Positions 5,321 to 56,069 of a stretch of 56,069 bases of DNA are shown piece by piece. The notes below the pieces were generated by a model, which was not told the DNA's origin, searched no databases, and saw nothing but the letters and a program-made list of their open reading frames with translations. Position 1 is the stretch's first letter, and each line of letters begins with the position of its first letter. The translations under genes were made by a program, and so were the position numbers. Origin of the DNA: Robiginitomaculum sp. (lineage in GTDB: Bacteria; Pseudomonadota; Alphaproteobacteria; Caulobacterales; Maricaulaceae); assembly GCA_015485155.1 (NCBI GenBank), contig WFUF01000024.1:1-56069 (forward strand), in the 5' to 3' direction.

Positions 5321-5504
5321 ACTTTTTCCCGCAAAACCGCGCTCAAGTAGCCGCTAGGCGGTAGCGCAAATAAAGAGTCCTCAAGTAGCGAAGCGGTAGG
5401 ACATTAAAGACTCCTCAAGTAGCCGCTAGGCGATAGGACATTAAAGACTCCTCAAGTAGCGAAGCGGTAGCGCACAAAAACCTTCCCACTTTTGCTAAAA
5501 ATGC
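5321..5504 (+). repeat. Modular hairpin repeat, element A (four modules)
   Basis: The element opens with a tag (CCCGCAAAACCGCG) and closes with CCTTCCCACTTTTGC then AAAAATGC. Between them are four modules with a common core CTCAAGTAG plus either CCGCTAGGCG or CGAAGCG. Outer stems: 5339-5343 GCGCT with 5363-5367 AGCGC; 5377-5381 GTCCT with 5398-5402 AGGAC; 5412-5415 TCCT with 5435-5438 AGGA. The fourth module (5449-5474) is a hybrid whose arms do not pair. The left end is degenerate (GACTTTTTCC instead of GCATTTTTGG). The orientation given is that of the core CTCAAGTAG. Confidence 0.8.
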
Positions 5505-5520
5505 AAATCCTTTATCTGTC

Positions 5521-5645
5521 GCATTTTTGGCCGCAAAACCCGCGCTCAAGTAGCGAGGCTTGCCGTCGCGGTAGCGCACAAAGAGTCCTCAAGTAGCCGC
5601 TAGGCGATAGGACATTAAAAGAGCTCCCACTTTTGCTAAAAATGC
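5521..5645 (+). repeat. Modular hairpin repeat, element B (two modules, intact ends)
   Basis: A 125-base copy bounded by GCATTTTT (5521-5528) and AAAAATGC (5638-5645), a perfect 8-base inverted repeat. The modules are GCGCT 5542-5546 with AGCGC 5573-5577, enclosing an inner stem GCGAGGCTTGCCGTCGC, and GTCCT 5585-5589 with AGGAC 5609-5613, enclosing CCGCTAGGCG. It ends one base before the stop codon of the minus-strand peroxiredoxin gene. It lies 16 bases from element A in the same orientation. Confidence 0.85.
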
Positions 5646-5646
5646 T

Positions 5647-6129
5647 CTAAATCCGTTCCAGCAAGTATTCTGCGGAAGAAACGCGAAATTCGCCGGGTTC
5701 TTCCACATAAATATGTGTAACTATACCATCTTTTGCCAGCATGCTGAACCTTTGGCCCCGTATTCCCATGCCAAAAGCCGAGCCATCAAAATCCAGCCCT
5801 ATGGACTTTACAAAGCTTCCATTACCATCAGCCAACATCATAATATCATCACTTGTGCCTTGCTGTTTTTCCCATGCATGCAAAACAAAAATATCATTTA
5901 CCGAGGTGCAGATGATCTGATCCACCCCCTTGTCACGCAAGCTCGCAGCATATTTCTTATATCCCGGCAGGTGTTTGGCGCTGCATGTGGGGGTAAAGGC
6001 ACCAGGCAGTGAAAACAATGCCACGGTTTTTCCTGAAAATACTTCATCGCCGTTTATCGGCTTTGGCCCCTGCTTGCTCATAATCATAAAGCCGGTATTG
6101 GGCAGCTTGTCACCGGGTTTTAATGCCAT
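5647..6129 (-). CDS. Peroxiredoxin, Prx5/redoxin type
   Basis: A 160-residue thiol peroxidase that reduces hydroperoxides. The peroxidatic cysteine sits in LPGAFTPTCS, the Prx5 subfamily form of the active-site loop, and the later GIRGQRFSMLAKDG segment also fits. A longer frame from 6228 exists, but ATG 6129 (MALKPGDKLP) is preceded by an AAGGAGA ribosome site at good spacing and gives the normal family length. The stop codon abuts hairpin element B, which may form the 3' end of its message. The likely reductant is thioredoxin or glutathione/glutaredoxin. Confidence 0.92.
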   Translation of the reverse strand: MALKPGDKLPNTGFMIMSKQGPKPINGDEVFSGKTVALFSLPGAFTPTCSAKHLPGYKKYAASLRDKGVDQIICTSVNDIFVLHAWEKQQGTSDDIMMLADGNGSFVKSIGLDFDGSAFGMGIRGQRFSMLAKDGIVTHIYVEEPGEFRVSSAEYLLERI

Positions 6130-8088: not shown

Positions 8089-8246
8089 GCATTTTGAACC
8101 GCAAAACCCGCGCTTAAACTAGCGAGGCTTGCCGTCGCGGTAGCGCAAGCAACGCGCTCAACTAGCCGATAGGCGGTAGCGCAAGCAAAGATTCCTCAAC
8201 TAGCGAAGCGATAGGACACAAAAACCTTCCCACTTTTGCTTGCAAA
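8089..8246 (+). repeat. Modular hairpin repeat, element C (three modules)
   Basis: It begins one base after the yqgE stop with GCATTTTGAACCGCAAAACCCG and ends with CTTCCCACTTTTGCTTGCAAATA, a diverged right end. Module stems: GCGCT 8110-8114 with AGCGC 8142-8146; GCGCT 8154-8158 with AGCGC 8178-8182; TCCT 8193-8196 with AGGA 8213-8216. It fills the gap between two convergent genes. Confidence 0.8.
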
Positions 8247-8254
8247 TACTTGTA

Positions 8255-17401: not shown

Positions 17402-17555
17402 TCAAGGGTCATTGCCAAGGGTCACTCTTAGGGTCAGTGCAAATTTCGCTGCCCCTTGAGTGATATTTGCGCTACCTTGCAATCATACAAAAGAAGCACT
17501 TTTTGGTAATAAAATAACCCTGAAATGACCCTTAAAGATACTGGCTGACCCTTGA
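17402..17555. repeat. AGGGTCA-rich element, copy 1
   Basis: A 154-base segment bounded by a perfect 10-base inverted repeat, TCAAGGGTCA (17402-17411) and TGACCCTTGA (17546-17555). The left half holds three direct AGGGTCA units (from about 17405, 17418 and 17430) and the right half two inverted ones. A related copy begins at 55972 and shares blocks such as GGGTCACTCTTA, GGGTCAGTGC and CCTTGAGTGATA. It looks like a small non-coding mobile or regulatory repeat and encodes no protein. Confidence 0.7.
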
Positions 17556-47387: not shown

Positions 47388-48935
47388 CTAATTAACAGGC
47401 CTTGACCTTAAGCCCACTCCGCCGAAACTGATCCCGGACAGCTCTGCCATTTCACGCTTCCAGGTGCCAAGGTCATCATGGCAGAACCCCGACAAATGGT
47501 CGTGGCCACAGGCTCTGGCCATTACTTGCATGAGATGCGTGCAAGCCTCTAAAAACCTTTGTAATCGCCGGGCTGCTGCATCCACATCCAGCAAAGCCCG
47601 TAACTCAGGCTTCTGGGTGGCAATACCAGCCGGGCAGTTATTGGTATTGCACATGCGCGCTGCCACACAACCTATCGCCTGCAGGGCCGAATTTGACAAG
47701 GCAATGCCGTCTGCGCCCATCGCCATAGCCTTTATGAAGTCCTCTGGCATGCGTAAACCGCCAGTGATAATCAGCGTCACCTCACGCCCGGCTTTGGCAT
47801 CAAGATGTTTGCGCGCCCGGGCCAGTGCCGGTATTGTTGGCACACTAATATGATCTCGAAACAATAATGGCGCCGCTCCGGTGCCGCCACCACGGCCATC
47901 TAGAATGATATAATCTGCTCCGGCGTTTAAGGCAAAATCTATATCATCCTCTATGTGATTGGCTGATAGCTTATAACCAATGGGAACGCCACCTGAGCGC
48001 TCACGAACTTCATCGGAAAACCTGCGAAAATCTGCCACCGTTACCAGATCGGTAAAGGTTGATGGCGATATGGCATCTTCGCCAACCTGTAACCCTCTGG
48101 TTCTGGCAATACTGGCGGTGACCTTGTCCCCTGGCAAATGACCTCCGGTTCCAGTCTTTGCCCCCTGCCCTCCTTTGAAGTGAAATGCTTGTACATCCTG
48201 CATCATTTCCAAATCCCAGCCAAATTTTGCTGAGGCCAATTCGTAAAAATAGCGGCTATTGGCTTCTCTCTCCTCACCTAGCGAGCCACCCTCGCCGGAA
48301 CAAATACCGGTACCGGCTAACTCGGCACCTCTGGCCAAGGCGATTTTGGCTTCTTTTGATAACGCACCAAAGCTCATATCGGACACAAATAATGGTATTT
48401 TTAATACAAGCGGTTTTTTGGCCCGCGGCCCTATCAATAATTCAGCCGCCACCTTTGCATCATCACTTAGGGGTTTACGTGCAAATTGTGCGGGCAGAAT
48501 CTGAATATCATCCCAATGCGGCAGGTCTTTGCGCGGCACACCCATTGCGCCTAATTCCCCATGATGTCCGACCTTGGATAGACCATCGCGGGCCAGTTCA
48601 TGAATGCGGGCCACGGTTGGCTCCTCAGAAGTAGGCTCAGCCTTTGGCATGCCGCCATGAAATATTTCCGGAACAATATCGCCAACTTGAGCCGACCCAA
48701 GTCTGGTATGGCTACCATCACAAAACGGTGCATTGCCTGTGGCCTTGCACTGGCACAAATAAGCCGGGCCAGCTTTATCGGCGGTAAAGGCTTGTGGCAT
48801 AATGCCTGTTCCCTTGTGCGATCCATCGCAAAATGGCTGAGTTTTAGAGCGGCCACACTTGCACCAATAATAGGTTTTTTGGGCTTCTAATTCGATGCTG
48901 ATCGGTTTTTTATCAGCAATGACGGCTTTGCTCAT
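47388..48935 (-). CDS. Two CDGSH iron-sulfur domains fused to a glutamate synthase-like FMN domain
   Basis: A 515-residue protein. Residues 1-80 hold two CDGSH zinc-finger-type [2Fe-2S] motifs (YYWCKCGRSKTQPFCDGSH and YLCQCKATGNAPFCDGSH). The rest, from about residue 110, matches the FMN-binding central domain of glutamate synthase (GltB), with ILDGRGGGTGAAP and the cysteines CNTNNCPAGIATQ that hold a 3Fe-4S cluster. The glutaminase domain of GltB is absent. The protein probably carries out electron transfer and FMN chemistry; the substrate is unknown. Confidence 0.9.
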   Translation of the reverse strand: MSKAVIADKKPISIELEAQKTYYWCKCGRSKTQPFCDGSHKGTGIMPQAFTADKAGPAYLCQCKATGNAPFCDGSHTRLGSAQVGDIVPEIFHGGMPKAEPTSEEPTVARIHELARDGLSKVGHHGELGAMGVPRKDLPHWDDIQILPAQFARKPLSDDAKVAAELLIGPRAKKPLVLKIPLFVSDMSFGALSKEAKIALARGAELAGTGICSGEGGSLGEEREANSRYFYELASAKFGWDLEMMQDVQAFHFKGGQGAKTGTGGHLPGDKVTASIARTRGLQVGEDAISPSTFTDLVTVADFRRFSDEVRERSGGVPIGYKLSANHIEDDIDFALNAGADYIILDGRGGGTGAAPLLFRDHISVPTIPALARARKHLDAKAGREVTLIITGGLRMPEDFIKAMAMGADGIALSNSALQAIGCVAARMCNTNNCPAGIATQKPELRALLDVDAAARRLQRFLEACTHLMQVMARACGHDHLSGFCHDDLGTWKREMAELSGISFGGVGLRSRPVN

Positions 48936-49039
48936 TGTTTACTCCTGTTGAATTTTGCCCAGTAATCTATACATAAATTTCCCTGCTGGCTTAAATTATT
49001 ACTTATGCCTGCCCAACAGATTTTAGCAAAGGGTGGTTT

Positions 49040-50170
49040 ATGATCCATATCAGCTCCAATTTTGACAGTGGAAATATCGAAGTATTAGCAGCTAATGATC
49101 CTTCCGCTATCCGGCTGAATATCAAAAAAGATAACAATTCTGATTTTTATCAATGGTTTCACTTTCGTCTGTCAGGAGGCAAAAATACACCTTGTACCTT
49201 TGCAATAGAAAATGCAGGTGGCGCAGCCTATGTACAAGGATGGGAAAACTACCGGGTTGTAGCATCATATGACCGTGAACACTGGTTTCGCATTGATAGC
49301 AATTATCAGGACGGCATATTGAATTTTGAGCTAAACCCTGAATATGACGCTGTCTGGTTTGCTTATTTTGCACCGTTTTCTTTGGAGCGGCATCAGGATT
49401 TACTGGCCGAGGCACAAGGGTCAGAGCGGGCAAACTTATTACGCCTCGGTGCAACACTCGATGGCCGGGATCTGGATTTGCTTCACTTTACCGGTGATGG
49501 CGAGACTGCGCGCAAAAAGATATGGTGTATTGCACGCCAGCACCCCGGCGAAAGCATGGCCGAATGGTGGATGGAAGGATTTTTGTCCCGGATCATGGAT
49601 GATACCGACCCGGTGGTGCGCGAAATATTCCGCCGGGCTGATTTTTACATAGTGCCCAATATGAATCCCGATGGCTCGTTTCGTGGACATTTGCGCACCA
49701 ATGCCTGTGGCGCCAATTTGAACCGTGAATGGCTAAACCCCAGTATGGAGCGATCACCGGAAGTGTTTCTGGTGCGACAAAAAATGCAGGCAACCGGTGT
49801 GGACTTTTGTCTTGATGTTCATGGCGATGAGGCTCTGGCATATAACTTTATTGCCGGAGCTGAAGGCACAAAAAGCTGGAACACTGATCGAGCCAGACAA
49901 TTGGCAGATTTCACCAAAGCTTACGAGAGAATATGTCCTGATTTTCAAACCAAAATCGGCTATCCAATTGCTGCTGAGGGAACTGCCAATATGTCCATGT
50001 GTACCAATTGGGTGGCCGAGGAATTCAAATGCCTGTCCATGACACTGGAAATGCCGTTCAAGGATACAGAGCTTAGCCCCGATGAGGAACAAGGCTGGTC
50101 ACCGGAACGATGCCGGCATCTGGGCGCAGCAGTAATTGATGCGATATGGGCACGATTTGAGGATCTGTAA
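49040..50170 (+). CDS. M14-type metallocarboxypeptidase (cytosolic carboxypeptidase-like)
   Basis: A 376-residue protein without a signal peptide. An N-terminal beta domain (1-125) of the CCP type precedes the peptidase domain. Zinc ligands: His and Glu in ARQHPGESMAEW, His in CLDVHGDEAL. The catalytic Glu is in MTLEMPFKD. NMNPDGSFRGHLRTNACGAN with NLNREW is typical of the CCP/Nna group, which removes acidic C-terminal residues in eukaryotes. The bacterial target is unknown. Confidence 0.88.
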   Translation: MIHISSNFDSGNIEVLAANDPSAIRLNIKKDNNSDFYQWFHFRLSGGKNTPCTFAIENAGGAAYVQGWENYRVVASYDREHWFRIDSNYQDGILNFELNPEYDAVWFAYFAPFSLERHQDLLAEAQGSERANLLRLGATLDGRDLDLLHFTGDGETARKKIWCIARQHPGESMAEWWMEGFLSRIMDDTDPVVREIFRRADFYIVPNMNPDGSFRGHLRTNACGANLNREWLNPSMERSPEVFLVRQKMQATGVDFCLDVHGDEALAYNFIAGAEGTKSWNTDRARQLADFTKAYERICPDFQTKIGYPIAAEGTANMSMCTNWVAEEFKCLSMTLEMPFKDTELSPDEEQGWSPERCRHLGAAVIDAIWARFEDL

Positions 50171-50204
50171 CCTGATCTTTTATTTTCGATAATAGGTTTT
50201 GAAA

Positions 50205-51029
50205 CTAGTGCCCGCCATGGTTTTCGCCATTTTGCGGCGCAGTTGTTTTATGCGGCTTAGGTTCGGTTTTTTCCAGCCCGTCATCAATCTCTTGCACTTG
50301 CCTGGGCGCAGCTAAATCAGAATCTTGTTTTAAGGGGCGCTTGCCAAGCAAACGATCACAATCATGATTGCGCGAGGGCTCGGCCAGAAACTCAACGGGA
50401 AACCATTGGCTGCCTCCGGCGCCGGAACGCGGAACTGTTTTTAAGGTCTTTCTGATATCAACTGGAATTTCATTGCCGCCATAAATTTTACGCCGGGCAT
50501 TTTTATCATACTGTTCCATCCAGTGCCGGGCTTCGGCCAGATCCTTGCCGCCAGCGCTGTATAATTGGATGGCCAGTTCAGCCTGTGCTTCTGGCCAATT
50601 GGCATTGGCCGCCCGGCGCAACTGGCGCAAGCCCTCTGCTAAAATGGCCTTAGGGCTAGATTGCCAGGCAAAGGGCTGTTGCAGTTTCAGTGTTGTCTTG
50701 TGCCGCTTGTTTTCTTCGCTGTCAGCAGTATGGGCCTTATCCAGATCATCTTCCTGCCAGAGGCGGGCTGCGATGGGTGCGCACTGCCCTGCCCGTTGCG
50801 CAGCTACCTCCCAGCCAGGACCCTGCCCGGCCAGACAGACAAAAACCGGCATTGCTGTGGCACAATAGCCCTGATCGGCAAGCCTGGTTGCCATCTGATA
50901 TGCCAGTTCAGCCCTGGTGCCCCCGGCAGGCGGATTTTTCTTGTCAAATTTTGGCCCGGCACTGCCACAAGCCGCCAGCACAAGAACGCTTGCAAACAGA
51001 CCATAAGAAACAAACCGCAAACCGTTCAT
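50205..51029 (-). CDS. Putative lipoprotein with helical repeats
   Basis: A 274-residue protein with a lipoprotein signal (SVLVLAACGSAG; lipobox LAAC). The mature part has helix-rich stretches (ELAYQMATRLADQGYC, LAEGLRQLRRAANAN, AQAELAIQLYSAGGKDLAEA) that look Sel1/TPR-like, then a proline-lysine-rich, disordered tail. It has four cysteines in the mature middle. Its start overlaps the DUF6460-like gene stop by four bases. The function is unknown. Confidence 0.7.
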   Translation of the reverse strand: MNGLRFVSYGLFASVLVLAACGSAGPKFDKKNPPAGGTRAELAYQMATRLADQGYCATAMPVFVCLAGQGPGWEVAAQRAGQCAPIAARLWQEDDLDKAHTADSEENKRHKTTLKLQQPFAWQSSPKAILAEGLRQLRRAANANWPEAQAELAIQLYSAGGKDLAEARHWMEQYDKNARRKIYGGNEIPVDIRKTLKTVPRSGAGGSQWFPVEFLAEPSRNHDCDRLLGKRPLKQDSDLAAPRQVQEIDDGLEKTEPKPHKTTAPQNGENHGGH

Positions 51030-51328
51030 TTTTTACTCACCGCATTAAGCACGCGCAATAACAAGAATATGGGAACCACCAAAATTGCCCCAAGCAGGAA
51101 GTATTCAAATGCCCAGTCCAGTAACTCCCAGCCCTTAGCCCAGGCATCGGCTATGGTGCCCAGAAAATCACTCCAGACCCGGGTCGGATCAATATCCAGA
51201 ATTGCCAGTAAAATTCCAACTCCAAGACTGATCAGAATTAGTTTGAAAAGCCCCGAGGGACTAATTGCAAACAGCTTTTGCCAAAATGTGCGCTTGGACT
51301 TTGATTGTAGTGACTGCTCATCATTCAT
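51026..51328 (-). CDS. Small membrane protein, DUF6460-like
   Basis: A 100-residue protein with two membrane helices: about 28-47 (GLFKLILISLGVGILLAILD) and 76-95. The motif IDP between helices and the closing WAFEYFLLGAILVVPIFLLL recall the DUF6460 family of Alphaproteobacteria. The basic N-terminus is cytoplasmic by the positive-inside rule. It forms a two-gene unit with the downstream lipoprotein. Confidence 0.6.
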   Translation of the reverse strand: MNDEQSLQSKSKRTFWQKLFAISPSGLFKLILISLGVGILLAILDIDPTRVWSDFLGTIADAWAKGWELLDWAFEYFLLGAILVVPIFLLLRVLNAVSKK

Positions 51329-51395
51329 GGCAAAACTCCTGTTTACTCAAGACCTCACCCTAACAAGGCTGGGCTGGTACAGGCAAGTCTTACAA

Positions 51396-51515
51396 GCATT
51401 TTTAGCAAAAGTGGGAAGCTCTTTTAATGTCCTATCGCCTAGCGGCTACTTGAGGAGTCTTTTAATGTCCTACCGCCTAGCGGCTACTTGAGGACGGGTT
51501 TTGCGGCCAAAATGC
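51396..51515 (-). repeat. Modular hairpin repeat, element D (two modules)
   Basis: A 120-base copy, bounded by GCATTTTT (51396-51403) and AAAATGC (51509-51515), in the opposite orientation to A-C. Two modules: TCCT 51430-51433 with AGGA 51453-51456, and GTCCT 51467-51471 with AGGAC 51491-51495, both enclosing CGCCTAGCGG. It lies 58 bases past the tipF-like stop. Confidence 0.85.
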
Positions 51516-51573
51516 GATTGAACAAAGGCTTTTTGAATAATCATAGATCAGAAGAAGGCACGAATAAGACCAG

Positions 51574-52812
51574 CTAACCTGTCATCTTTAATGGCTCGTC
51601 GGCCTCTGCTAAAAATTCCTCGCGAATGGGTCGCGGCGCACCAAATAAATGACCTTGCGCATAGCCGGTATTTATTTCCAGCAATTCAACCACGCTGGCC
51701 TCATCCTCAATTTTTTCACCGATCAGTTCAATGCCAAAACGTGCCAGATAAGGAACTATATCCTCAACCCGGATATCGGGGGCTGATGGCAAGGCCCCGC
51801 CAGTGGCAGAATGAACAGCCGTTAACAGCATTTCAGCATCAATTTTCAAAAACTTGACCCCGGCACGCTGCATATCTGCCAGATCAAAATCCATGGTCTC
51901 GACCTTGTCGATGGAAAAGCGGAACCCAAAATCGGCCAATCTCGACATGTTTCTGGCTTCGGTTACTGAGCGTTTGACAAAATCAGCCTGTCCCATTTCA
52001 AATATCAAAGAACCAGACAGATCCGAATTCTGCCGCATAAAGTCTAGAAACTGCGGGAAAAACTCCTCATCACCCAAAGAATCCGGTGAAATATTACAAA
52101 CTACGCCAACCCGCCGGTCTTTTTGTGTCAGACGGCGGACAATCTGCACACAACGAAACAGCAATAAATTATCAACCACCGACACCAGCCCTGCCGGCTC
52201 TGCCACCCGCAGGAAATCACCGGGCATTATCACCTTGTTTTCATGATCGCGGAGACGTGTAAAGCTCTCATAATAATATACTTTACGCTGTGGCAGGGAT
52301 ACAATAGGTTGCAAGTGGAGCTCAACCCGTCCTGCCTCCAGAGCCTCGCGCACCAGTGTCAGCATTAAGTGCCGATCATCTGCCATTTGCACATCGTCCA
52401 CCTTTACCGCTGCAATGCGCGCAGTTTCAGCCAGACGCGAGGAAAAATCATCTTCCAGTTTCTCGATCAGGCTTTCAATGACCTGTACCTCTGAAACAAT
52501 TGCCTGATTACGGTGAATTGCCTCTTCTTCCACTGAGCGAGAAAGTTCTGCCAGTTGGTTTTGTGCCGCGTCCAGTTTGCCGGCAAGATCCCTGGTGGTA
52601 TTGCGCAAGGTCTCAATGCTTTGGCGCATCTCAGCACTTTCAAATTTGCGTACAGCAAAAACATGGGCCTGCACTGCCGCCAGAAACACTATGGCTCCCA
52701 TCAGGCTGGCATAACCGATACTGGTTTCCATAAGTCGCACAAGAGCCAGTGCCGAAACCATGGCCAGCAACGCATAAATCGCAACAAACATAAACCCTGT
52801 TGTTCGACCCAT
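51574..52812 (-). CDS. TipF-like protein with degenerate EAL domain
   Basis: A 412-residue protein from ATG 52812 (a TTG at 52851 is possible). Two membrane helices (about residues 7-28 and 36-55) precede a coiled coil (about 60-140) and a C-terminal EAL fold. The catalytic motifs are altered: EAL reads ESF near residue 182, and the usual DDFG reads DKVE, so it is unlikely to hydrolyse c-di-GMP. This layout matches TipF of Caulobacter, a c-di-GMP effector that positions the flagellum. No flagellar genes are seen here. Confidence 0.78.
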   Translation of the reverse strand: MGRTTGFMFVAIYALLAMVSALALVRLMETSIGYASLMGAIVFLAAVQAHVFAVRKFESAEMRQSIETLRNTTRDLAGKLDAAQNQLAELSRSVEEEAIHRNQAIVSEVQVIESLIEKLEDDFSSRLAETARIAAVKVDDVQMADDRHLMLTLVREALEAGRVELHLQPIVSLPQRKVYYYESFTRLRDHENKVIMPGDFLRVAEPAGLVSVVDNLLLFRCVQIVRRLTQKDRRVGVVCNISPDSLGDEEFFPQFLDFMRQNSDLSGSLIFEMGQADFVKRSVTEARNMSRLADFGFRFSIDKVETMDFDLADMQRAGVKFLKIDAEMLLTAVHSATGGALPSAPDIRVEDIVPYLARFGIELIGEKIEDEASVVELLEINTGYAQGHLFGAPRPIREEFLAEADEPLKMTG

Positions 52813-52911
52813 TACATTTTTCCAAGCGTGATAAATAAATAAGAGTTGCAAGTTCGCCCAATCATGGTTTCCAAGATATTAATTTTTAACTCAAAACCCA
52901 AGATTGCTGTA

Positions 52912-52946
52912 GGTCAGAAACCCTAAATCCCAGAGGTTTCTTGACC
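52912..52946 (+). promoter_or_regulatory. Hairpin in the lysK leader
   Basis: GGTCAGAAACC (52912-52922) pairs with GGTTTCTTGACC (52935-52946) apart from one bulged T. It ends 51 bases before the lysK start. It could be a leader control hairpin or a terminator-like block; no T-run follows. Confidence 0.4.
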
Positions 52947-52997
52947 AGCACCCCGGACTTGGGCTAGCGAAGTTCGCCACAGAAGAAGAAACACATC

Positions 52998-54584
52998 ATG
53001 AGCGAACAAGCACAAATTTCTGCAACACACAAAGCATGGCCATTTGAACAGGCCAGGCTACTTGTCAAGCGTCTGTCCCGGCAGGGGCGAACCAGTGGTG
53101 AGGTTTTGTTTCAAACCGGGTACGGGCCTTCTGGCCTGCCGCATATTGGCACTTTTGGTGAAGTGGCCCGCACCTCAATGGTGCGTCATGCCTTTGAAGT
53201 GATGACTGATGGCGCCTTTACCACCCGCCTGATTGCTTTTTCTGATGATATGGACGGGTTTCGCAAAGTTCCCTCCAATCTTCCAGAACAGGAAATGCTA
53301 CAGGCCCACCTTGGCCTGCCCCTGTCAAAAGTTCCTGATCCTTTTGGCACTCATGAAAGTTTTTCGGCTCATAACAATGCAAGATTATGTGCATTTTTAG
53401 ATCAGTTTGGCTTTGATTATGAATTTATCTCATCAACCCAAACCTATACCAGTGGTCGTTTTGATAAAACCCTGCTCCTGATGCTGGAGCGGTTCGACAA
53501 GATAATGGACATTATACTGCCAACCCTGGGCAAAGAGCGCCAGGAGACTTATTCACCATTTTTGCCAATTTCGCCGGTTTCAGGACAGGTATTGCAGGTT
53601 CCAACCCTGTCCCGTGACATAGCAACAGGAACCATCACATTTGAAGATGTGGATGGTAAGGAAAAACAGGTTCCGGTAACTGGAGGTAATGTAAAAATAC
53701 AATGGAAGCCGGACTGGGCCCTGCGCTGGGCAGCGCTGGGAATTGATTATGAAATGTCGGGCAAGGATCTGATTGAATCAGTACATCAATCATCCAAAAT
53801 TTGCCGGGTGTTGGACGGAGTCCCGCCGGCTGGCTTTAATTACGAGCTATTCCTGGATGAAAATGCCGAAAAAATTTCCAAATCAAAGGGCAATGGTCTT
53901 TCGGTGGAGGAATGGCTAAGTTATGGCCTTCCCGAAAGCCTGTCGCACTTCATGTATCAAAAACCTAAAACTGCCAAGCGGCTGTTTTTTGATGTAATTC
54001 CCAAAAATACCGATGAATATTTGCAACATTTGGCGGCCTATCCTGATCAGACCACCAAAGAGCGCCTGAACAATCCGGTTTGGCATATCCATAACGGTAA
54101 GCCACCTGCAGACAGTGTCCCTATATCATTCTCCCTGTTGCTTAATCTGGCTTCTGCGGCTTCGGTTGAGACCAAACAGCAAATGTGGGGCTTTATTTCA
54201 CGCTATGTGGAAGGCGCCAGCGCCAGCAGTCATCCGCTTCTTGATCGGCTGGCCGGATATGCCATTACCTATTTTCGTGATTTTATCCTGCCGACAAAAG
54301 AATTTCGGCTCCCCAACGACAGGGAACGCGCAGCATTGGAGGATTTGCTAAACAGGCTAAAGGCGCTGGATAGGGATGAACGTGATGCGCAAATATTGCA
54401 AACAGAGGTGTTTGCCGCTGGAAAAGCAGCCGGATTTGACAATTTACGCCTCTGGTTTTCAGCAATTTACGAAGTTTTGCTTGGGCAAAAAACCGGGCCG
54501 AGATTCGGCTCATTCATAGCCGTTTTTGGCAATCAGGAAACAATCAGGCTGATCGAGCGCGCCTTGAACGGAGAATTAGTATAA
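52998..54584 (+). CDS. lysK: Lysyl-tRNA synthetase, class I
   Basis: A 528-residue class I LysRS, the archaeal-type enzyme found in many Alphaproteobacteria in place of class II LysS. HIGH motif PHIGTFGE at residues 49-55 and KMSKS motif EKISKSKGNG near residue 294. It charges tRNA-Lys. The gene is complete. Its place beside a TipF-like gene is the usual context. Confidence 0.95.
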   Translation: MSEQAQISATHKAWPFEQARLLVKRLSRQGRTSGEVLFQTGYGPSGLPHIGTFGEVARTSMVRHAFEVMTDGAFTTRLIAFSDDMDGFRKVPSNLPEQEMLQAHLGLPLSKVPDPFGTHESFSAHNNARLCAFLDQFGFDYEFISSTQTYTSGRFDKTLLLMLERFDKIMDIILPTLGKERQETYSPFLPISPVSGQVLQVPTLSRDIATGTITFEDVDGKEKQVPVTGGNVKIQWKPDWALRWAALGIDYEMSGKDLIESVHQSSKICRVLDGVPPAGFNYELFLDENAEKISKSKGNGLSVEEWLSYGLPESLSHFMYQKPKTAKRLFFDVIPKNTDEYLQHLAAYPDQTTKERLNNPVWHIHNGKPPADSVPISFSLLLNLASAASVETKQQMWGFISRYVEGASASSHPLLDRLAGYAITYFRDFILPTKEFRLPNDRERAALEDLLNRLKALDRDERDAQILQTEVFAAGKAAGFDNLRLWFSAIYEVLLGQKTGPRFGSFIAVFGNQETIRLIERALNGELV

Positions 54585-54616
54585 CAGGCCCGGCCCTATT
54601 CTGCAAATATGTGGGC

Positions 54617-54644
54617 TTGCATACAATATTATTGATTGTAGAAT
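54617..54644 (+). promoter_or_regulatory. Candidate promoter for the small secreted protein and cyclodipeptide synthase
   Basis: TTGCAT (54617-54622) and TAGAAT (54639-54644) are spaced by 16 bases, a fair sigma-70-type match. A start of transcription near 54651 would leave a leader of about 18 bases before ATG 54669. This would make the two following genes a unit separate from lysK. Confidence 0.45.
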
Positions 54645-54668
54645 GGATTATGCTATTTCGATGGTTTC

Positions 54669-55019
54669 ATGCGTAATTTTATAACAATTTTTGTGATGCT
54701 GGCTTTTGGTGCGCCTATGGTGGCACCGGCAGTTCAAAATACGTTTATGAAATCGGCACAGATTGCATATGAGCAGAATATGCAAATTTTATCAGATGGC
54801 GTTCCTGAAATGCAGTGCGGTGAACATGACGAAAGTCAGGGTGACGGCACTGCCTGTGAGCAGTTGTCATATATAATGATGAAACTGCCCAAGGGCATAT
54901 TAAACAGGCAATACAATCACAATCAGCAATTTGTGCGACAGCATTTACAAGAACGTCTACTGGTCGTTTATGGCCTTTTATCAAAACCAGTTCCCAAACC
55001 TCCGCCTCATTTGATCTGA
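54669..55019 (+). CDS. Small exported protein of unknown function upstream of the cyclodipeptide synthase
   Basis: A 116-residue protein with a signal peptide (MRNFITIFVMLAFGAPMVAP). The mature part has two cysteines 16 residues apart in an acidic stretch (QCGEHDESQGDGTACEQLSY), a helical region and a proline-rich end (KPVPKPPPHLI). I recognise no family. It ends 55 bases before the cyclodipeptide synthase start on the same strand and may be co-transcribed with it. Confidence 0.6.
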   Translation: MRNFITIFVMLAFGAPMVAPAVQNTFMKSAQIAYEQNMQILSDGVPEMQCGEHDESQGDGTACEQLSYIMMKLPKGILNRQYNHNQQFVRQHLQERLLVVYGLLSKPVPKPPPHLI

Positions 55020-55074
55020 AATCAAGGTTCGGCTTGTGCCGGGCCCTCATTATTTTGGTTTTGGAGGTTTTATT

Positions 55075-55758
55075 ATGTTCACCAAACCGGTGACCGGGCA
55101 GTGCGCACGTGTGCTTTGTGCCCGTGAACATGCAATTTTGGGCATTAGCCCATTTAATTCATTTTTTTCCCGTGAACGCCTGAGCTGGCTTGTGCAATGG
55201 GCTGATACCAGCTTTGACGGGTTTCATATATATATCCCGGATGGGCCAGTTATTCATACCCTGCTGGCCTGTGGTTATGAGCCCAAAAAGGCCCGTAAAA
55301 AAGCAAGAAGGCAGATAAATTATTTGTCCAACAAGCTCAAGAAAGCTTTACAGGAGGGGACAAATGGTCGTCTACAGTATTCAGAATGTGTTTTATGCAC
55401 ACAGAATTTGCAAACCAATCAGGTCTATCAGGAAACTCTAGACAAGGTGTTATCGAGATTTGAAGATGATCCTGATTTTAGGCAAGGGTGCATAAAAACC
55501 AGTCGCTGGGTGCTGGCCATGCAAGAAGATCATGAAGACAAAAACCGGCCAGCAAATGCAGACCTTATTGCAGCGCAGTATTTTCTAGAGGAATTACCAC
55601 TGTTCATGAAGGGGGCGCAGATAGCCGGGGTTAAAAGCTCGGTTTTTTGCTATCCGTCATGTCCTGATTTTCTGCGCGAGCTGTTTAACCGGGAGCGGGA
55701 TGGGTTTATTTCTGCAGAACAGGGTTTTGTGGAGATCACTCCCCGTGAGAAATTTTAG
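55075..55758 (+). CDS. Cyclodipeptide synthase (CDPS)
   Basis: A 227-residue enzyme that uses two aminoacyl-tRNAs to form a cyclic dipeptide (diketopiperazine). By hand alignment to AlbC the catalytic Ser37 is Ser25 in LGISPFNSFFS, Tyr178 is Tyr169 and Glu182 is Glu173 in AAQYFLEELPLF, and Tyr202 is Tyr193 in SSVFCYP. The basic helix KKARKKARRQINYLSNKLKK matches the tRNA-binding helix of the family. Pro194 stands where AlbC has His, as in the XYP subfamily, while Asn28 is kept as in the NYH group. ATG 55075 with GGAGG eight bases upstream is chosen; the frame extends to 55036. No tailoring enzyme lies in the 311 bases to the edge. The amino acids used cannot be read from sequence. Confidence 0.92.
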   Translation: MFTKPVTGQCARVLCAREHAILGISPFNSFFSRERLSWLVQWADTSFDGFHIYIPDGPVIHTLLACGYEPKKARKKARRQINYLSNKLKKALQEGTNGRLQYSECVLCTQNLQTNQVYQETLDKVLSRFEDDPDFRQGCIKTSRWVLAMQEDHEDKNRPANADLIAAQYFLEELPLFMKGAQIAGVKSSVFCYPSCPDFLRELFNRERDGFISAEQGFVEITPREKF

Positions 55759-55815
55759 CAAAAGCGCGAAGGTTTTATTTGTTCTACCGCTTCGTACTTT
55801 AGGGACGGGTTTTGC
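55753..55815 (-). repeat. Modular hairpin repeat, element E (degenerate), overlapping the CDPS stop
   Basis: TTTTAGCAAAAGCGCGAAGG at 55753-55772 matches the right-end tag of the other copies, and GACGGGTTTTGC (about 55804-55815) matches the left-end tag. Between them one decayed module (GTTCTACCGCTTCGTACTTT then AGGGAC) remains. The TAG stop of the cyclodipeptide synthase (55756-55758) is part of the tag. Confidence 0.7.
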
Positions 55816-55971
55816 ATATCACGATCGTCATTGCGGGCTCGATCCGTAAATCCATACATTTGGTTTTGCGATAAGAATGGTTGGTAAAATTATCTACTAT
55901 CCCCGCGCCAAGTGCAAGGATGGACTTAAAGGTCAAAGTTGCAAGTGACGGTTTGGGCTGAAGTCATTTGC

Positions 55972-56069
55972 CAGGGTCGGTGACGAGGGTCACTCTTAAG
56001 GGTCACTTATAGGGTCAGTGCCATTCTTCGCTGTCCCTTGAGTGATACTTGATATCCCCTGCAATTATA
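55972..56069. repeat. AGGGTCA-rich element, copy 2 (cut by the window edge)
   Basis: It shares blocks in order with copy 1 at 17402: CAGGGTCGGTGACGAGGGTC, GGGTCACTCTTA, GGGTCAGTGC, TTCGCTG, CCCTTGAGTGATA and CTGCAAT. One extra GGGTCACTTAT unit is inserted. The remainder lies beyond the window. The stretch 55816-55971 before it shows nothing I can name. Confidence 0.7.

Follow-up and report, generated by a model that had tools for sequence, protein, structure and literature searches.

Cyclodipeptide synthases (CDPSs) are enzymes that join two tRNA-borne amino acids into a small ring. The window analyzed here, a stretch of 56,069 nucleotides, is one complete contig of a genome that totals 2.39 Mb in 27 contigs. 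The gene studied is close to the end of the window; the initial annotation described it as a CDPS of an alphaproteobacterium with a mixed signature, in which Asn, Tyr, and Pro at positions 40, 202, and 203 of AlbC would combine the NYH and XYP subfamilies. Taxonomic placement in the genus Robiginitomaculum agreed with the proposed host. The locus raises the question of whether this enzyme works, what it makes and in which genetic company, and whether it is a hybrid of two subfamilies. The gene and the codons discussed below are as follows, in window coordinates:

55075..55758, + strand: CDPS gene, 227 aa from an ATG start; NYH lineage, with Pro at AlbC position 203
55147..55149, + strand: codon of Ser25, corresponding by alignment to the catalytic S37 of AlbC
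55156..55158, + strand: codon of Asn28, corresponding by alignment to N40 of AlbC
55279..55359, + strand: basic helix, residues 69-95, regarded as the counterpart of NYH helix alpha4
55579..55593, + strand: codons of Tyr169 to Glu173, the two corresponding by alignment to Y178 and E182 of AlbC
55651..55656, + strand: codons of Tyr193-Pro194 (TAT CCG), corresponding to Y202 and position 203 of AlbC

The family assignment was upheld by the profile search that had been named as its check: the window protein scored 184.5 bits with the Pfam CDPS profile PF16715 (cut-off, 27) and 215.8 bits with NCBIfam TIGR04539, tRNA-dependent cyclodipeptide synthase (cut-off, 45), and the CDPS profile search gave matches in none of 14 control genomes. 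An alternative GTG start at 55036 would give a protein of 240 aa; the ATG start has GGAGG upstream and is aligned with the listed start of the Robiginitomaculum relative. In an alignment with AlbC, residues S25, N28, Y169, E173, Y193, and P194 of the window protein correspond to S37, N40, Y178, E182, Y202, and P203 in AlbC numbering. All four catalytic residues (Ser37, Tyr178, Glu182, and Tyr202) are kept, as had been claimed, and the letters Asn-Tyr-Pro at 40/202/203 had been read correctly. The basic helix was also confirmed, with 10 Lys/Arg and 2 Asp/Glu among the 27 residues 69-95 by sequence count, and we take it as the putative tRNA-binding counterpart of helix alpha4, which is positively charged and binds tRNA in NYH enzymes (PMC13062777). 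Pro203 is encoded by CCG in the window and by CCT in a relative with a 93% identical protein; since the relative encodes Pro with another codon, this residue is no sequencing slip. Judged by its sequence, the window gene encodes a real CDPS, and the enzyme is very probably catalytically active. By analogy with AlbC, a first aminoacyl group would pass from its tRNA to an ester on Ser25, a second aminoacyl-tRNA would yield a dipeptidyl enzyme on Ser25, and Tyr193 would act as a proton relay in the ring closure that releases the cyclic dipeptide.

A CDPS is encoded in 2 of the 18 genomes of the genus that were searched, that of the window included. The CDPS of the second Robiginitomaculum genome (locus L002) has 93% protein identity to that of the window, and the surroundings of the window gene include a block shared with this locus:

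54601..55776, no strand assigned: shared block of 1,176 bp, 91.5% identical to L002 5683-6856
54669..55019, + strand: 116-codon open reading frame (ORF) with a signal-peptide-like start (by eye), conserved with the CDPS gene in L002; putative coding
55826..56069, no strand assigned: copy of an interspersed repeat, inside which the contig ends; 45 match rows in the genome itself with a 311-base query, self included

The order in the window is lysS (PF01921), the 116-codon ORF, and the CDPS gene. Because the gene upstream of the block is lysS in the window and lepA (named by eye) in L002, the 1.18-kb block, made up of the 116-codon ORF and the CDPS gene, sits at two loci. Compared with L002, the 116-codon ORF showed a dN/dS of 0.46 with a nonsignificant excess of silent changes (p 0.077), and it matched no Pfam family at 0.001. 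A terminator-like stem lies at 55026-55045, between this ORF and the CDPS gene (six such stems in the stretch versus 1.9 expected), and a promoter scan yielded one promoter-like site, on the minus strand, versus 3.1 expected. As the coding status of the ORF is uncertain and a terminator-like stem intervenes, we refrain from treating them as an operon. No oxidase, methyltransferase, or P450 for diketopiperazine tailoring was seen by eye among the ORFs of 48000-56069, which agrees with the initial annotation; the contig ends 311 bases past the CDPS stop. The proposal to look beyond 56069 was settled in part: no tailoring enzyme was seen by eye in the first 7.5 kb of contig C19, whose start equals the last 104 bases of the window, but the final 151 bases of the window are identical to the end of contig C3, so that the join to C3 or C19 is ambiguous; both contig ends lie in the repeat. 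A related stretch of the interspersed repeat occurs at 17405-17487. Short repeats in common with L002, including the stretch right after the L002 CDPS gene, were seen at 5337-5647, 8151-8247, and 51395-51499 and are possibly a second dispersed element. The window CDPS had no match in phage records.

The product had been considered unpredictable by eye. We agree as to the second amino acid; for the first, the pocket letters suggest cysteine. As first-pocket positions we took AlbC 33, 35, 65, 67, 119, 185, 186, and 200. PMC5816076 names 65, 119, and 200 as the third, fourth, and eighth pocket positions, and the DmtB1 study names 65, 186, and 200 among its pocket positions (PMC6173783). The order 67 then 119 is our own choice, made because it fits the printed motifs and the present sequences, in which position 67 is Pro and position 119 is Ser or Thr in the window pair and in its relatives from another family of the same order (family f5). 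Compared by BLOSUM62 with the 32 motifs of PMC5816076 Table 2, a set that lacks the older cCC group of Jacques et al. 2015, the window pocket IGYPTLFF had its top score, 38, with VGYPSIFF, the only one of the 32 that the table assigns to cysteine; the next motif scored 28. By count of identical letters alone, IGYPTLFF ties at 5 of 8 between the cysteine motif and the proline motif LGLPWLFF, and the conservative changes alone favor cysteine. In the same scoring, the control AlbC found a Phe motif, and the four f5 relatives matched VGYPSIFF at 7 of 8 positions (VGYPSLFF or VGYPSFFF). From Table 1 of PMC5816076 we infer that VGYPSIFF belongs to CDPS 102 of Algicola sagamiensis, for which that table gives 72.8% cCG and 27.2% cCC. 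The likeness of the window enzyme to CDPS 102 is one of motif letters in the first pocket alone, since the second pockets differ (SAIKDPT in CDPS 102 and TWVMSPD in the window; PMC5816076). Prediction of both aminoacyl pockets, as had been advised, thus gave a nearest motif for the first and no good match for the second among the published motifs. These comparisons leave cysteine in the first pocket evenly poised, and because it is the most likely occupant, the predicted product is cyclo(Cys-X).

In the tree described below, the nearest relatives outside the genus are the four CDPSs of family f5; by identity, the window CDPS stands at 43% to that of genome G066 and at 42% to that of contig L030. 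Three of the f5 enzymes are encoded in mercury-resistance loci, each with a convergent merB 43-94 bp away:

L006 9546-15316: CDPS gene in a mercury-resistance locus
L033 3983-9525: CDPS gene in a mercury-resistance locus
L034 8536-13060: CDPS gene in a mercury-resistance locus

The gap between the convergent CDPS and merB genes is 43 bp in genome G848, 60 bp in G1031, and 94 bp in G066. In all three, MerB scored over the Pfam cut-off and MerA over the NCBIfam cut-off within about 4 kb, and MerT matches lie near the CDPS gene; the MerR-family genes of G066 and G1031 scored under the cut-off of the MerR model, and the MerP-like genes were named by eye. Set beside mer operons (MerR/T/P/A/B), the CDPS gene adjoins merB, with merA near, in three of the four closest CDPS genomes outside the genus, whereas no mer gene stands beside it in L002 or in the window, where lysS lies upstream and the contig end downstream. 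The window genome carries a mer cluster on another contig (C19:37135-39892, MerA over cut-off), and no MerT was found in the second Robiginitomaculum genome (77% complete). Among the 62 genomes of family f5, merB is present in 6, a CDPS in 4, and both in 3 (hypergeometric probability of 0.002, with relatedness ignored), and the three mer-linked loci, which have a common arrangement, are counted as a single origin. In G959 (96% complete), the CDPS gene lies on a 4.2-kb contig that extends 1.66 kb past it and encodes two other proteins there: one is small and of membrane type, and the other is glutathione-reductase-like, scores below the MerA cut-off, and is similar in kind to one encoded after merA in G066. 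No MerB was found in the G959 genome, and its MerT matches are on contigs other than that of the CDPS.

Small exported Cys/His proteins are encoded upstream of the four f5 CDPSs, and the 116-codon ORF of the window, which agrees with them in position and a few letters, was considered as their ortholog. Profile searches spoke against this: in one direction E was 9.3 among 1,382 ORFs, 19 of which scored better, and in the other the ORF was the best match but at an E of 0.61 among 688, with an hhalign probability of 0.6%. One of the four Cys/His proteins matched CopL, at 18.3 bits, under the cut-off of 40.

CDPS matches were also present in 23 plasmid records, of which 10 were opened: four from Streptomyces, one from Legionella lytica, four P450-linked, and one unannotated. 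The surroundings of XYP genes were outside the scope of the neighborhood survey. Among the opened records, the four Streptomyces CDPSs are the most similar by identity, and all four are encoded in metal-resistance regions. For two of them, H1 and H2, the regions are as follows:

L054 4096-7888: CDPS gene flanked by divergent genes for metal regulators and by a heavy-metal P-type ATPase gene
L055 4097-7888: CDPS gene flanked by divergent genes for metal regulators and by a heavy-metal P-type ATPase gene

In both, the P-type ATPase gene starts 21 bp after the CDPS gene on the same strand. On the third Streptomyces plasmid, the CDPS gene follows those for a cysteine synthase and an MFS transporter, and on the fourth it precedes CopY/M56/CopC. 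The first pocket of three of these enzymes is CGFPWLFF, nearest to proline and leucine motifs of PMC5816076 (SF12 by identical letters); that of the fourth, CGFPGLFF, put the cysteine motif first but weakly (29 versus 26).

We consider it probable that the window encodes a working CDPS of the NYH lineage that tolerates Pro203, is predicted to make cyclo(Cys-X), and belongs to a lineage of which several members lie in metal loci. Thiol diketopiperazines are expected to bind soft metals well, which would explain the metal-gene company of several relatives. Since the lineage has members in mercury and other metal loci, the product may serve, or may have served, metal or thiol chemistry. Such a metal role is nevertheless a tentative proposal that we judge unlikely, and our confidence in it was reduced by G959, which has no mer gene proper beside its CDPS gene. 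A serious competitor, which we put somewhat short of an even chance, is that the enzyme makes an ordinary signal- or antibiotic-type diketopiperazine and that the mer and metal genes beside its relatives are there by hitchhiking in resistance islands. Plasmid metal islands gather unrelated genes, the block occurs alone and away from mer in the window and L002, the G959 CDPS gene has no mer gene proper next to it, and the pocket case amounts to similarity to a single cysteine motif. Against hitchhiking, related CDPS genes are found with metal genes in two phyla and in various arrangements, on H1 and H2 immediately before a P-type ATPase gene of the same strand, and the four P450-linked plasmid CDPSs have no metal gene listed adjoining them, within flanks of 2-3 kb versus 4-5 kb for the metal-linked ones.

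The favored reading places the enzyme within the NYH lineage, and the alignment and tree with NYH and XYP members that had been recommended were run. The tree comprised 27 rows, 21 on the NYH side (the window included) and 6 XYP, one of them labeled 'Cglo', which is F. dumoffii; it left out the weak matches L011 and L015, the plasmid match H6, the G1124 and G1125 enzymes, and 13 of the 23 plasmid matches. The NYH/XYP split was supported at 100/100 with the window on the NYH side, and the window pair grouped with the four f5 CDPSs at 99/98. In a phmmer search with the window protein as the query, the XYP entry 7qat, which we take to be ParcuCDPS, appeared only at an E of 0.07. The same search returned seven distinct CDPS sequences at E values of 1e-23 to 2e-17, all of them NYH according to PMC7613923 or the tree. 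Foldseek, run with a poor model (built from three sequences, pLDDT 59.8, with residues 185-227, including position 203, under 50), ranked only CDPS chains at 1-41 (best E, 3e-10) and chains of NYH enzymes at 1-19, ahead of any other. With AlbC, YvmC, Rv2275, BtCDPS, and the Staphylococcus haemolyticus (S. haemolyticus) CDPS, the window enzyme has in common the fold, the catalytic Ser/Tyr/Glu/Tyr, Asn40, the basic helix, and the tree branch (in rows without YvmC and Rv2275); it differs from the solved NYH enzymes in having Pro, not His, at 203 and shares 21-29% identity with them in fold alignments. Of the NYH signature it thus has Asn40 and Tyr202 and lacks His203, and of the XYP features it has Pro203, whereas in the tree it branches apart from the XYP enzymes.

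Of the 21 NYH-side rows, 14 carry His at position 203, three carry Lys, two Pro, and one each Gln and Asn; at position 40, 20 rows carry Asn and one carries Thr. DmtB1, like the window enzyme, is an NYH enzyme without His203; it is active with Gln203 and differs in its tryptophan-containing products and in the prenylation genes at its locus (PMC6173783). Because position 203 varies in the clade and DmtB1 is active with Gln203, we regard N-Y-P as a local change within the NYH lineage, in which His203 would have become Pro on the Robiginitomaculum branch with Asn40 retained. The claim that the enzyme combines two subfamilies is therefore not supported: the tree, the sequence search, and the fold ranking all speak against a hybrid identity, which we reject, and the word "mixed" misleads, as the residues are right but position 203 drifts among His, Gln, Pro, Lys, and Asn. 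The related possibility that Asn40 and Pro203 stand in an XYP-like active-site arrangement fits the letters N, Y, and P and draws on AlbC simulations, which suggest that positions 40 and 203 (N40/H203) act as a pair with few pairs allowed (PMC5935735). It is highly improbable in view of the NYH placement, and relatives that keep Asn40 also carry Gln, Lys, or Asn at 203, while Thr40 occurs together with His203 in the structurally solved S. haemolyticus enzyme. By analogy with the H203A change, which strongly impairs AlbC (PMC5935735), Pro203 could lower activity.

Between the window and L002, the CDPS genes differ by 42 silent and 21 replacement changes, giving a dN/dS of 0.114; this is far from neutral (42 of 63 changes silent, p 3e-14 versus no selection), so the gene is maintained, and it is under purifying selection. 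Given this selection and the looseness of position 203 in the clade, Pro203 is most likely tolerated. That the CDPS is decaying or inactive, its loss of His203 reflecting relaxed selection, is the least likely reading given these values and the four retained catalytic residues, even though AlbC needs His203 (PMC5935735), a long branch (0.96 in the tree) leads to the Robiginitomaculum pair, and a related CDPS on contig 16 of G1125 is broken.

A second branch of related CDPSs is linked to kinases. In all eight such genes examined, the CDPS is fused to or encoded directly before a PAS/HATPase kinase-type protein, at the following loci:

L024 8640-10880: CDPS-kinase fusion
L025 9333-11247: CDPS gene and kinase gene
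L035 7953-10187: CDPS gene and kinase gene
L070 5071-7011: CDPS gene and kinase gene
L071 4962-6909: CDPS gene and kinase gene
L072 5323-7308: CDPS gene and kinase gene
L030 4965-7217: CDPS gene and kinase gene
L031 7980-10734: CDPS gene and kinase gene

They come from the alphaproteobacteria G153 (the fusion), G1064, G118, G1124, and G1125 (twice), whose genomes measure 1.0 to 2.8 Mb, from contig L030, and from the L. lytica plasmid, on which the CDPS is followed by a PAS/HisKA/HATPase/receiver protein. PAS_4 and HATPase_c scored over their Pfam cut-offs in all eight and HisKA in only two. The five kinase-linked enzymes in the tree form one branch (81/82), and position 203 is Lys in six of the eight, Asn in one, and His in one. 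By its gene order, the pair looks like a synthase-sensor module, and the obvious reading would be that the kinase is tuned to the product of its neighbor. On contig 16 of G1125 (L072 5323-6092), the CDPS gene is split into two ORFs next to an uninterrupted PAS/HATPase gene; this genome also carries an unbroken CDPS-kinase pair. In L030 (1-10630), a 55-kb contig filed as viral, the CDPS gene is one of three consecutive genes, the others encoding a PAS kinase and a receiver protein, and nearby genes look by eye like those for ParA and single-strand binding protein; in two scans, this was the only viral contig with a relative of the CDPS. PMC2922099 (2010) reports a CDPS in Legionella and no fusions in its set, and the CDPS fusions named in PMC5816076 are to methyltransferase, P450, and ABC-transporter domains. 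Open-access titles and abstract openings, together with the CDPS passages of PMC13220807, PMC10132079, and PMC11828895, yielded no linkage of a CDPS to mercury or metal genes or to a histidine kinase, and an earlier description is possible.

The enzyme itself is a variant within a known subfamily, and what is notable about it is its lineage, with a probable cysteine pocket and mercury or metal loci beside several relatives. The enzyme's natural Asn40-Pro203 pair allows the published proposal of a paired action of positions 40 and 203 to be tested directly (PMC5935735). As a conjecture to which we give little credence, enzymes of this CDPS branch might make a Cys diketopiperazine to bind or carry mercury or copper, so that a small molecule would take part in metal resistance in alphaproteobacterial mer loci and Streptomyces islands; the window gene would be a detached copy in which Asn40-His203 was relaxed to Asn40-Pro203, and a sister branch would feed a PAS histidine kinase located in the cytosol. 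Should the product contain cysteine and bind metal, a function in metal resistance would be added to CDPS chemistry, and a small-molecule thiol component to mercury resistance.
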